Shown: one piece after another, positions 27,537-31,271 of the stretch | Layout: every line of letters starts with the position of its first letter | Position numbering within the stretch: the first letter of the stretch is position 1 | Source: Pelagibius sp. | GTDB lineage: Bacteria; Pseudomonadota; Alphaproteobacteria; Kiloniellales; Kiloniellaceae | Length of the DNA: 35,443 nucleotides | NCBI RefSeq assembly: GCF_028289705.1 | Contig: NZ_JANQOI010000065.1 | Span: 1 to 35,443 of the forward strand | Reading direction: 5' to 3' | Position numbers and translations under genes: made by a program | Notes under the pieces: generated by a model | Database searches by the model: none | Told to the model about the DNA's origin: nothing | Seen by the model: the letters and a program-made list of their open reading frames with translations, nothing else

Positions 27537-28343
27537 CTAGCGGCCTTCCCACTCAGGTTTGCGCTTTTCGATGAAGGCGTCGATACCCTCTTCGGCATCG
27601 CGCGCCAGCATGTTGGTGGTCATGACTTCGCTGGCGTAGGCATAAGCCTCGACCAGGCCGAACTCGATCTGCCGGTAAAAGGCCTCCTTGCCGATCTTCA
27701 GGGTAAGCGGCGATTTCGCGATGACCCTCTCGGCCAGCCGGATGGTCTCTTCGTCCAGCCGCTCTTGCGGGACTGCGTGGTTGATCAGGCCGAACTGTAT
27801 CGCCCGGTCGCTGTCGATCATCTCGCCGGTCAGCAGCATCTCCATCGCCTGCTTGCGCGGCACCGCCCGGGAGAGCGCCACCATCGGCGTCGAGCAGAAG
27901 AGGCCGATGTTGACCCCCGGCGTGCCGAAGCGGGCCGTATCGGCCGCCACCGCCAGGTCGCAGGTCGCCACCAGTTGGCAGCCCGCCGCCGTCGCGATGC
28001 CGTGGACCTTGGCGATCACCGGCTGGGGCAGGGTGGTCAGGGACACCATCAGCTTGCTGCATTGCCGGAACACACCCTGGAAGAAGGCCCGGTCGCCGCC
28101 CCTGGTGCGCAGTTCCTTGAGGTCGTGGCCGGCGCAGAAGCCCTTGCCGGCGCCTTCGATCACCACGGCGCGAACCGACGGGTCTTCGGCGATCTCGTCG
28201 AGACAGCCCTGCAGCTCCGCCATCAGGCCGGTGGAGAGCGCATTGTACTGCGCGGGGCGGTTGAGGGTGAGGCTTGCGATGCCCTCACGGTCGGAGCGGA
28301 GAAGGAGGGGCGGCTCGCTCGCCCGGGCGGCTTCGGCTGACAT
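27537..28343 (-). CDS. Enoyl-CoA hydratase/isomerase family protein (ECHDC3-like)
   Basis: 268-residue crotonase-fold protein. The acyl-CoA oxyanion-hole segments are present: [26 protein letters not shown] and [20 protein letters not shown]. In the segment where classical [15 protein letters not shown] a catalytic Glu (QPEI-type), this one reads [20 protein letters not shown], as in the ECHDC3 clade. It may therefore lack ordinary hydratase activity. The start codon and first six codons lie inside the left 205-bp direct repeat, and a truncated copy of them recurs at 31067-31083. Divergent from paaI in the presumed original arrangement. Confidence 0.88.
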
Positions 28344-28531
28344 CTTTTCCTCTGGCCATCCTCTGGCCGTTTCCAGAACGCGCCCGACTTTGGCGCTTTC
28401 GCGGGCCTGAGTTCAAGGGGTAATAAGGCCCCACAACGCCAGGATATCCAAGCCAGAAAGTTCGAGGCGGAAGGCGCCGTCCAGATGGACCAAGACAGCC
28501 CTCTCCGCCGAACCGCGCTGGAGGAATCCAA
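28327..28531. repeat. Direct repeat, left copy (echA start to paaI codon 16)
   Basis: Matches 31067-31271 over 205 bases without gaps at an offset of 2740; I count about 17 differences (about 92% identity). It contains the echA start, the divergent intergenic region and the first 15-16 codons of the thioesterase gene. The similarity stops abruptly at 28531, where rpsI-like sequence begins. Confidence 0.93.
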
Positions 28532-28729
28532 TACGGTGAAGGGCGTTGGCCTCTCCGGCCAGGCCGGGGCGCTGCGCCACAGCATCTCCAAGGCGCTGAC
28601 GCTCTATGGGGCGGATCTGCGCTCGGTGCTCAAGCGCGGCGGTTTCCTGATCCGCGCCTCCCGCGTCGTGGAGCGCAAGAGGTATGCCGTGCCAAGGCGC
28701 GCCGGAGCCTCCAATACTCCAGGCGCTAA
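28485..28729 (+). pseudogene. Chimeric remnant: thioesterase N-terminus fused to decayed rpsI 3' end
   Basis: Opens like the downstream thioesterase ([15 protein letters not shown]), then from about 28533 follows the C-terminal third of ribosomal protein S9: [39 protein letters not shown]. The DNA matches intact rpsI 32631-32828 at about 84%. A one-base deletion near 28688 shifts the frame. If restored, the end reads [15 protein letters not shown] (28727-28729), parallel to [15 protein letters not shown] in rpsI. The unrestored frame stays open into the neighbouring oxidase gene on the other strand, which is chance. It cannot act as S9 because the body is missing. The stretch 28730-28813 is AT-rich and has no gene. 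Confidence 0.85.
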
Positions 28730-28813
28730 TCTAAAACGCTTTATTATCAGTATTTTATGCGGTGTATCCGGCTTCTGTGGCGCCGCTTGTTTTTGTCAAT
28801 CTCTCTGGCGGGA

Positions 28814-30304
28814 TCAGCTCACGGTGAACTGTCCCATCATGCCGCGATCTTCGTGTTCCAGGATGTGGCAGTGATACATATAGGGATACTGCTCGGTCGC
28901 CGGATGATCGAAGCGAACAACAATTTCAGACCAATCGTCGTCATCCAACACCACGGTATCCTTCCAACCTCGCTGATCCGGTGGCGCGGCCGCGCCTTCC
29001 ATTTGCTCGATCAGGAAAGAACAACCGTGCACGTGAAACGGGTGCGCGCCCTGATCGGAGCGGATACGCCAACGCTCCCAAACGCCGCGTTGGACACGTT
29101 CGTTGATGACGTTCATGTCCATCGCCGCACCATTGATGGTCATATCCATCGCGGCATGGCCTCCATGCGTGCCATGACCGCCGCCATCCCCCATAGCGAG
29201 CACAAAGTCGCGGGTGCGCGTTATTTCGCTTTCGTTGGGGCGGGCAATGGTCGCCAGTTTCTCGAGCAAGGGCGCCGTATGCGCTCGCAGTGACCTGTCG
29301 ACTCTCAGGGTCAGCGATGGTTGTAGCGGGGGCGTCTCGGAGCGGCCTAGCAGATCCAGCAGATTGTTGACGATGCCGCCCTCGGCCTCATCGAACTCAT
29401 CTTCGAAAAGAGTGAGCAATTCGGCGGCATTGCCATCCGACACGTCAACAATGATCTCGCAACGCTCGCCGGGCGACATTTCCATTGTCGTCATCGGCAC
29501 AGGGGCTGCCAGCAACCCGCCGTCACTGGCAATCTTGTAAAATGTACGGTTGTCAGCAAATGCAACGATGTAGAACCGCGCATTGGCACCGTTGAGGATT
29601 CGCAGCCGGACCTTTCCGGCAGGGACCGTTGCAACCGGTGCAATCGCACCGTTGATCACCACAGTTTCGCCCAGCCAGCCGTCCTCGTCTGCGTCGTTCA
29701 GTGAATAGACCAAACGGCCCTCTGCGTCGAAGGTTCGGTCCTGAATGATCACCGGCAAATCGTCAATGCCATATTGACGCGGGAGGTCCATTGAATCGGC
29801 CTCATCATCATCGATGATGATCAGACCGGCCAAACCGCGATAGACCTGATCGCCGGTCTTGCCATGCGTATGGGAGTGATACCAACAAGTCGCGGCCGGC
29901 TGCACGATGGACAATCTGGGCTGCCACTGGTCTCCCGGTGCCATTTCCAGCTGTGGTCCGCCATCAACTTTGCCTGGAACGTGCAGGCCGTGACCGTGAA
30001 TGGCTACGCCTTCGGTCAGGGTGTTCTGGTAGCGCAGATTGAGTTCGCTGTTTTGCTGGGTTCGTATCGTTGGTCCCAAGTAGTCTTGGCTGATCCCCAG
30101 AGTCGCTGTCTTGACGCCGGGCTTGAAAGACCATTCGCCTCTGCGAATTTGCAGATCGACCGGTTCTCCACTGGTTCCGTCAACAAGCGCCGGTATCGGT
30201 AGCTTGGAGGGCGTGGCTGTAGACCAGGCAGGCCGAATCAGGCTGGCGCTCAGGACAGGAACGCTACTGGCAAGAAACCGCCGCCGAGAAAGGACAAACG
30301 ACAT
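28814..30304 (-). CDS. Multicopper oxidase (CueO/laccase-like)
   Basis: 496-residue Tat-exported oxidase; [10 protein letters not shown] is a twin-arginine signal. Three cupredoxin domains carry all copper motifs: [34 protein letters not shown] and [16 protein letters not shown] (type 1 Cys, His, Met plus the trinuclear His set). A His/Met-rich loop ([17 protein letters not shown]) lies before domain 3, as in copper-tolerance oxidases. Likely oxidises Cu(I) in the periplasm. ATG 30304 has AGGAG four bases upstream; ATG 30316 is also possible. Composition is clearly less GC-rich than its neighbours (28 and 30 G+C in two sampled 60-base lines), which suggests transfer. Confidence 0.93.
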
Positions 30305-30312
30305 GGAACTCC

Positions 30313-30507
30313 TCATGACAATATGTGGGCTGTGAGCAAGCCGTCGGGCTGCAGGCTCGGGCCATCGTGGTGATCATCGTCGCGGCCTCTATGGTTGGTA
30401 AACCGGGGCCGACGGTCCATTGGACAGATGCCGGATTGGCGGCCCTGGACATCAGGCATAAGGTCAATTTCAGCGATCCGACGAAGTGCTAATATCTTGA
30501 TTCCCAA
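30313..30507 (-). CDS. Possible 64-residue leader ORF overlapping the oxidase start
   Basis: TTG start at 30507 with TGAGG five bases upstream. The product has no membrane segment but contains TNHRGRDDDHHDGPSLQPDG, a His/Asp-rich patch that could bind metal. Its TGA overlaps the upstream in-frame ATG of the oxidase (ATGA at 30316-30313), which would couple translation. It occupies the divergent promoter region, so it may be chance. No family is recognised. Confidence 0.25.
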   Translation of the reverse strand: MGIKILALRRIAEIDLMPDVQGRQSGICPMDRRPRFTNHRGRDDDHHDGPSLQPDGLLTAHILS

Positions 30508-30527
30508 TAAGACCTCAGGAAAACACC

Positions 30528-31067
30528 ATGATCGACACGCTAGAGCGGGTTCCGAGCCGGCAGACGGTTTTCGCGGTTTTCGTGCTGATTGTCTTTGGTA
30601 CCAGCGCCGCGGAAATCATCGCCGAGTTCGCGGACGGCGAGGCGCTGGGTTCGATGGCTGACGACTTGTCGAGGTTCGTCCTCAGCGCAGTCGTATTAGG
30701 CGTGTTCGTATTCGAGTACCGCGTGCAGCAACGGGCGCTTAGGGAACTGGGTGGGCAGCTAAACAAGGCCCGCGGTCAGCTAGCCCGGCTCGATACCAGA
30801 TCGCAGGAACTCGCGAGCCAGTATCGCGCGGTGATGCAAAAGCAGTTTGACGCCTGGAATCTGACAGCCAGTGAGCAGGATGTCGTTATCGGGATGCTGA
30901 AGGGGTTATCTTTTAGGGAGATAGCCCAACTCCGGGAAACGCGAGAAAAAACAGTGCGTCAACAAGCCTCCGCAGTCTACCGAAAGGCGGGAGTGGCCAG
31001 TCGAAACGAGCTGGCCGCTTGGTTTTTCGAGGACATGTTGGAGCCGCCGCCGGTTCGCGAAGGCTAG
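30528..31067 (+). CDS. Membrane-anchored LuxR-type HTH regulator
   Basis: 179 residues: two N-terminal membrane helices (about 13-31 and 47-64), a coiled-coil linker rich in Arg/Gln/Leu (about 66-105) and a C-terminal LuxR/GerE-like HTH (LTASEQDVVIGMLKGLSFRE, IAQLRETREKTVRQQASAVY). Divergent from the multicopper oxidase, it probably controls that gene or responds to the same envelope stress. No periplasmic sensor domain is present beyond the short loop between the helices. Its TAG stop ends exactly at the first base of the right direct repeat. Confidence 0.85.
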   Translation: MIDTLERVPSRQTVFAVFVLIVFGTSAAEIIAEFADGEALGSMADDLSRFVLSAVVLGVFVFEYRVQQRALRELGGQLNKARGQLARLDTRSQELASQYRAVMQKQFDAWNLTASEQDVVIGMLKGLSFREIAQLRETREKTVRQQASAVYRKAGVASRNELAAWFFEDMLEPPPVREG

Positions 31068-31271
31068 CGGCTTCGGCTGACATCTTTTCCTCTGGCTATC
31101 CTCGGGCCATTTCCAGAACGCGCCGGACCTTGGCGCTTTCGCGGGCCTGAGTTCAAGGGGTATTAAGGTCCCACAACGCCAGGATATCCAAGCCAGAAAG
31201 TTCAAGACGGAAGGCGCCATCCCGATGGACCAAGACAGCCCGCTCCCCCGCATCACGCTGGAGGAATTCAA
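31067..31271. repeat. Direct repeat, right copy
   Basis: Second copy of the 205-base repeat. It begins at the last base of the regulator's stop codon with GCGGCTTCGGCTGACAT, the truncated start of echA in reverse, and runs into the intact thioesterase gene. The echA remnant here has no coding value. Confidence 0.93.

Follow-up and report, generated by a model that had tools for sequence, protein, structure and literature searches.

We analysed a 35,443-nucleotide (nt) stretch of DNA from Pelagibius sp. (Alphaproteobacteria; Kiloniellaceae), positions 1 to 35,443 of contig NZ_JANQOI010000065.1 in assembly GCF_028289705.1, which is called the window below. In this window, a foreign gene pair, encoding a CueO-like multicopper oxidase and a divergent LuxR-type regulator, stands between the native genes echA and paaI and is bracketed by two imperfect direct copies of the echA/paaI start region. 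The repeat is linked to the integration of this module. With slightly better than even confidence, we read the locus as the fossil of a cassette integration that was anchored in the ribosomal protein gene rpsI, duplicated a resident segment in tandem, and was followed by a deletion in the left copy. The host draft genome (5,411,244 bases in 193 contigs; estimated contamination, 2.09%) was compared with seven congeners (G001-G007) and with one genome from another genus of the same family (G008). The locus was contiguous in six congeners (G001, G002, G003, G005, G006, and G007). A scan of public genomes yielded 77 loci, 26 of which, termed module loci here, encode an oxidase at least 67% identical over the matched part. 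Locus L106 was taken as G005 and L111 as G006, L110 is a repeat of L111, and L163 and L119 hold parts.

The two copies of the direct repeat (28327-28532 and 31067-31272) are spaced 2740 nt apart and agree at 189 of 206 positions (91.7%), leaving 17 substitutions. The initial annotation, which was made from the letters alone, had given 205 bp, the same offset, and about 92% identity. With the right copy as the query, two places only were found in the whole host draft genome at an E value of 0.001. Each copy holds the first five codons plus two bases of echA together with the first 16 codons of paaI, and the first base of the right copy is also the final base of the regulator's stop codon (TAG, 31065-31067). 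As had been proposed, echA and paaI each have their own start region, with each copy keeping the half that is needed. Compared with the six contiguous congeners, both copies were nearest to G002 (71.5% and 73.6%), and the other five ranged from 55 to 68%. The 17 differences were then polarised by the commoner letter among the congeners. Changes derived in the left copy numbered nine in the paaI half and one in the echA half, those derived in the right copy numbered one and three, respectively, and three were undecided (Fisher p 0.041). In addition, the paaI start of the left copy carries replacements at residues that the right copy retains. Each copy therefore tends to decay where it is redundant, which fits a duplication inside the host lineage.

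The left copy of the repeat passes directly into a second version of the 3' end of rpsI, which closes with a stop codon at 28727-28729, a feature that the initial annotation overlooked; the right copy continues into intact paaI-rplM-rpsI. This likeness was detected as two further repeat families, pairing 28533-28684 and 28686-28727 with 32631-32782 and 32785-32826 at 85-86% identity. The left unit consists of the echA start, the promoter region, 16 paaI codons, and the rpsI 3' end; it lacks everything from paaI codon 17 to rpsI codon 98, and no bases are shared at its paaI/rpsI junction. This unit is the relic of a second echA-paaI-rplM-rpsI segment. The rpsI part keeps its frame with the paaI remnant until one missing base near 28685. 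Apart from this frameshift, it has 17 private changes, spread as 5, 7, and 5 over the three codon positions, and at 14 further sites it agrees with the congeners against the host rpsI, 12 of these carrying the letter of G005 (these site counts omit six initial columns ahead of the junction and two columns past the stop). The relic differs from the host rpsI at 30 of 196 positions, compared with 17 of 206 between the repeat copies (Fisher p 0.030). For the 84 bp behind the relic, the local alignment score was reached by 1 of 1000 shuffles for G005, 1 for G006, 96 for G008, 195 for G001, and 959 for the flank of the host's own rpsI. The shared letters, the divergence, and the 3' flank lean towards a donor, congener-like origin of the rpsI relic.

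The initial annotation had described a low-GC multicopper oxidase and a divergent, membrane-anchored LuxR-type regulator between the repeats and had suggested that they arrived by integration or insertion. The genes are as described, and both base composition and phylogeny make the module look foreign. The GC contents of the oxidase and the regulator are 0.58 and 0.59, compared with 0.62-0.70 in the nine other window genes measured, and at third codon positions (GC3) they are 0.65 and 0.70, compared with 0.83-0.91. Among the eight Pelagibius genomes searched, the oxidase was found in three (the host, G005, and G006), and the best matches in the other five were 28-32% identical. Trees were built for 26 oxidases and 20 regulators. 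In both, G005, G006, and the contig with rows identical to G006 formed a clade with 100/100 support on a long branch, with the host outside. The host version falls among those from other families, with the oxidase of L099 as its nearest (82/76 support), and most of the deeper forks are open. We rejected vertical inheritance of the module, given the 73% protein identity between the host oxidase and those of G005 and G006 and the separate clade in both trees. These results suggest that the cassette entered the genus at least twice, from different sources. The idea of a gene common throughout the class was likewise rejected, as the host alone passed an E value of 1e-150 among 385 class genomes drawn. 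The 20 plasmid matches listed were 40-45% identical, and two further records were counted at 60-80%.

The initial annotation had seen no transposase and no att-like site. Pfam scans found no transposase or integrase among 15 open reading frames (ORFs) of the window, 5 of which had no Pfam family, or among 25 ORFs flanking 16 of the 26 module loci, of which 3 had none. The look for att sites was confined to a tRNA scan, in which the sole tRNA of the window lies at 18019-18095, away from the insert. Some further observations were made on the module in other genomes. In G051, from another family (L097:9246-10596), a 115-bp remnant of the oxidase 3' end with 90% DNA identity to the host is cut off beside a transposase pair with HTH_Tnp_1, HTH_21, and rve domains, which we take to be of IS3 type. 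L110 is a 4.5-kb contig binned as Candidatus Phaeomarinobacter; its oxidase and regulator rows are identical to those of the Pelagibius metagenome-assembled genome L111, and it is likely mis-binned. The regulator adjoins the oxidase in 20 of the 26 module loci and was not matched (E 1e-4) at the other six (L105, L108, L109, L112, L114, and L117). Four of these six are named Gammaproteobacteria, and the others are named Arenicellales and Thioalkalivibrio, both of which we take to be gammaproteobacteria as well.

Gene order in the relatives places the insert in a conserved setting. The left-hand genes (CoA-binding gene, mscS, echA) and the right-hand genes (paaI, rplM, rpsI) have the same order in the six contiguous congeners and in G008; in G004, the locus is split over contigs, and there is no mscS between echA and the CoA-binding gene. 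In all seven congeners and G008, echA adjoins paaI. The module is absent from five of the seven congeners, and all six contiguous ones, including the module-bearing G005 and G006, have echA and paaI back to back with a single start region, which is the form that the initial annotation had given for an empty site. G005 and G006 instead carry the module immediately after rpsI, in the order rpsI, regulator (reverse), oxidase (forward). The module-free sister species of G005, G001, has 87 bp where G005 has 2394; the two are 94% identical across the 8.6 kb towards rpsI and 92% across 6.1 kb on the far side. At 449 of the 508 informative sites from echA to rpsI, G005 agrees with G001; its affinity switches between positions 8360 and 8363, within its rpsI (8013-8504), and this breakpoint was matched by 0 of 2000 permutations. 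The identity between G005 and G006 is 79.4% in the core, 81.9% in the 5' part of rpsI, 95.8% in its 3' end, and 91.0% across the module. The breakpoint and this profile indicate that the cassette seems to have moved between lineages together with the rpsI 3' end. Because a 3' relic of rpsI adjoins the host module and recombination was detected in the rpsI of G005, the homologous anchor is likely rpsI, not echA/paaI.

The region behind rpsI is variable in the genus. A hexapeptide-repeat gene follows rpsI in the host and in all six congeners compared, at distances of about 0.2 kb in G002, 0.8 kb in G003 and G007, 1.4 kb in the host, 3.3 kb in G001, 4.2 kb in G006, and 5.6 kb in G005. The cargo, which was identified and screened for mobile elements in part, includes CobW in G005 and G006 and DUF1826 in G005 (L106:9631-11564, beside the module); the host interval (32829-34258) holds a VanZ-domain gene. 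The rpsI-to-hexapeptide interval is a cargo hotspot in the genus. It resembles the core-gene-flanked hotspots without mobile elements outlined for 80 species (PMC5635113), in having differing cargo between the same two conserved genes, here in the host and six congeners, and recombination in a flanking core gene, here the rpsI breakpoint of G005; it differs in comprising species of one genus and a duplication fossil. In L101, an alphaproteobacterium with an echA 62% identical, the order is rpsI, an argC-like gene, oxidase, regulator, which is the orientation of the host with one gene between. The VanZ-domain gene has a 47% identical paralogue elsewhere in the host (G000:C81:39325-40467).

On this basis, we propose the following history. 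A cassette without mobility genes would have entered the host on donor DNA with the order rpsI 3' end-oxidase-regulator, probably from an unsampled congener. The rpsI 3' end of the donor would have paired with the resident rpsI as a homologous anchor, and its other end, at the regulator stop, would have joined echA codon 6 illegitimately, upstream of the anchor and most simply on the sister chromosome. A single event of this kind would both insert the cassette and tandemly duplicate the segment from the echA start through paaI and rplM to rpsI. A later deletion in the redundant left copy would have removed the stretch from codon 17 of paaI to codon 98 of rpsI. The fused relic would have remained to the left of the cassette and the intact genes to its right, with echA and paaI each retaining a single working start region. 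For a 5.4-Mb genome, we estimate the odds of a chance landing within about 1.5 kb of rpsI to be on the order of 1 in 2000, which speaks for this history. A duplication followed by an insertion had been one of two suggestions of the initial annotation; it comes close, but the two processes would probably belong to one joint event, followed by a deletion.

Related processes are known, from which this proposal departs in part. Integration with one homologous and one illegitimate end is known as homology-facilitated illegitimate recombination (PMC3240628). The host join between the regulator stop and echA codon 6 likewise appears non-homologous: there are 0 matching bases at the join and 14 of 40 ungapped in front of the repeat. 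At none of the 26 module loci does the regulator have an echA-like start next to it, and the echA start region matched only the own echA/paaI regions of L101, L106, and L111, plus one 27-bp stretch in L106. The difference from the cases outlined in that report is that the illegitimate end lies upstream of the putative rpsI anchor here, so that resident genes would be duplicated. In the natural transformation of pneumococcus, a short donor fragment bridges sister chromatids, giving a tandem duplication and merodiploids (PMC3784515). There, homology acts at both ends via a repeat, over about 100-900 kb, and a hybrid repeat marks the junction; here, the relic of a duplication is present, of about 4 kb or less, but the regulator/echA junction is free of repeats. 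A tandem duplication that activates transferred genes has also been outlined (PMC11111574); it is similar in being an illegitimate tandem duplication around a newly acquired gene and differs in arising under laboratory selection with designed borders.

Several points weigh against the proposed history. The homologous crossover is not visible, as it would fall within the deleted stretch, and no donor with the order rpsI-oxidase-regulator is in hand: the module of G005 and G006 has the opposite orientation and comes from another branch, and L101 has the argC-like gene between. The polarity test on the repeat copies is weak, with 14 sites, 2 of them opposing the trend, 3 more undecided, and halves drawn by the analyst. 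The excess divergence of the relic over the repeat has a p value of only 0.030. The likeness of the relic flank is weaker in global alignment, where the score was reached by 9 of 1000 shuffles for G005, 98 for G006, 241 for G001, and 728 for the host. In the relic tree (198 columns), the approximately unbiased test gave p values of 0.469 for the relic with the host rpsI, 0.484 for the relic with G005, and 0.484 for the relic with G005 and G006, and none was rejected. ComEC is encoded by the host but was also detected in 10 of 14 control genomes, and it says little on competence.

The main rival explains the same anatomy in two steps and fits nearly as well, and we regard it as possible, if on the whole unlikely. 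The module would have settled in the rpsI hotspot, a later ordinary tandem duplication, with its junction between the regulator stop and echA, would have copied the stretch from the echA start to the regulator, and the left core genes and the right module would then have been lost, the latter perhaps displaced, along with the 3' end of rpsI, by the VanZ cargo. This course accounts for the right rpsI differing from the relic in sequence, stop codon, and downstream flank, and it agrees with the VanZ gene being unmatched in the seven congeners and with the relic-host rpsI grouping that the tree test leaves standing. However, it needs one extra deletion or replacement, the region behind the right rpsI gave no module scrap (best DNA E value 0.22, best protein E value 0.067, chance level), and the relic has diverged further from the host rpsI (30/196) than the repeat copies have from each other (17/206; Fisher p 0.030).

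Two illegitimate joins with a 206-bp target duplication, the rpsI piece being the end of the incoming fragment and no later deletion being required, would involve the fewest rearrangements on paper and would suit the paaI/rpsI junction without shared bases. A target duplication of this kind would, however, be long at 206 bp. It is also left unexplained why a fragment starting in rpsI should land about 1.4 kb from the resident rpsI. We consider this explanation improbable.

The other suggestion of the initial annotation was that the echA/paaI repeat recombined homologously with DNA of a related organism, one of its copies being foreign. It has in its favour that two imperfect copies flank a foreign insert, but it is not supported and appears very improbable. 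The copies are 91.7% alike, compared with 55-74% to the six congeners, which leaves room for a donor from this species or a sister species. The copies also tend to decay in opposite halves, and the rpsI relic is unexplained. An assembly chimera, for which the 193 contigs and 2.09% estimated contamination might speak, is the least credible explanation: a bridge or collapse is unlikely between copies that differ by 8%, the relic shows a frameshift as well as private changes where the six congeners are invariant, and native genes flank the insert in conserved order.

Returning to the rpsI-anchored integration, a further idea is that the rpsI 3' end is more than a general hotspot, namely a preferred docking sequence for cassettes free of mobility genes, run by host recombination. 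What prompted the idea is that two distant versions of the module adjoin rpsI within a single genus, oppositely oriented, and that in L101 a third is separated from rpsI by one gene. We hold it to be improbable. Against cassette-specific targeting of rpsI, the hotspot also carries CobW, DUF1826, and VanZ, and the flank ORFs with a Pfam family in other taxa are unrelated genes. If docking were real, the rpsI 3' end would be a ribosomal-gene counterpart of tRNA attachment sites.

The oxidase scored above the cutoffs of Pfam PF07732 and PF07731, and its best match in the PDB was CueO (5b7e; E value 2.7e-101). Like Escherichia coli CueO, it matches over the full length, its copper-ligand motifs align with those of the structure, and it has a Met/His-rich stretch before the last domain; in contrast to that enzyme, it is paired with a divergent membrane GerE-type regulator, and it scored 469 bits against the cutoff of 525 of the NCBIfam CueO model NF008205, so that it is CueO-like rather than classed as CueO. 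Its N terminus carries a twin-arginine-like RRRF. The GerE helix-turn-helix of the regulator is a marginal assignment (24.1 bits vs a cutoff of 23.5), and hydropathy and alignment place two hydrophobic stretches at residues about 12-35 and 44-62. There was no conserved cysteine or histidine across the 20-row regulator alignment, and the match to the LIC13292 family (63.4 bits) was below the NCBIfam cutoff of 200.

The promoter region shared by the two genes contains the inverted repeat ATGCC(G/T)GAT-N14-ATCCGGCAT, a pattern that occurs once in the 5.4-Mb host genome, at 30428-30459. The best pattern match beat all 100 shuffles in 14 of 18 intergenic regions, failing in L104, L106, L111, and L118, in a test that is partly circular as the pattern was derived from the same alignment. 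Scans for sigma-70 promoters and terminators remained at chance level (0 promoter-like sites vs 0.9 expected; 4 terminator-like sites vs 2.9). Judged from these sequence features, the cassette is probably a self-contained, self-regulated copper-response unit with a periplasmic oxidase, a membrane-anchored regulator, and one predicted operator. A literature search joining multicopper oxidase, LuxR, and Labrenzia gave no match, and we make no claim that the locus is undescribed. The features of the locus are collected in Table 1.

Table 1. Features of the echA-rpsI locus and its surroundings (positions are those of the window)
Feature	Position	Strand	Remarks
echA (enoyl-CoA hydratase), intact, native	27537..28343	-	NCBIfam NF006008 425.5 bits, cutoff 313
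Left repeat copy: echA start, shared promoter region, first 16 codons of dead paaI	28327..28532		Decay mostly in paaI half
Fused ORF, paaI remnant and rpsI relic	28485-28874		
Relic of rpsI 3' end, 197 bases, to stop	28533..28729	+	One base lost near 28685; in-frame fusion to paaI remnant
Flank 3' of rpsI relic	28730..28813	+	Like rpsI downstream flank of module-bearing G005 and G006
CueO-like multicopper oxidase, twin-arginine-like N terminus, foreign	28814..30316	-	Pfam Cu-oxidase_2/_3; GC3 0.65
Divergent promoter region	30317..30527		Inverted repeat 30428-30459, predicted operator
LuxR/GerE-type regulator, two hydrophobic, probably transmembrane stretches	30528..31067	+	GerE 24.1 bits, cutoff 23.5
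Right repeat copy: first 5 echA codons (dead), promoter region, start of intact paaI	31067..31272		
paaI-type hotdog thioesterase, intact, native	31225..31662	+	TIGR00369 35.5 bits, slightly below cutoff 36.6
rplM, intact	31870..32334	+	
rpsI, intact, homologue of relic	32337..32828	+	NCBIfam S9 205.6 bits
VanZ-domain protein, cargo in rpsI hotspot	32886..34094	+	Pfam VanZ; matched by 0/7 congeners at E 0.001
Hexapeptide-repeat protein, conserved far border of rpsI hotspot	34259..34816	+	Pfam Hexapep

Taken as a whole, the locus most plausibly records, in fossil form, an integration with duplication at a ribosomal-gene hotspot, which would be a variant of recombination processes already known. 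If the proposed history is correct, the locus would be a readable fossil of the chromosomal settlement of a cassette without mobility genes of its own, in which a neighbouring conserved gene served as the homologous handle and the price was a duplicated housekeeping segment that decays. Such duplications are usually viewed as unstable laboratory products; here, the remains of both copies can be compared. The analysis also marks the 3' side of rpsI as a hotspot of gene exchange in Pelagibius and describes a copper-oxidase/regulator cassette that recurs among genomes, appears self-contained, and has one predicted operator.

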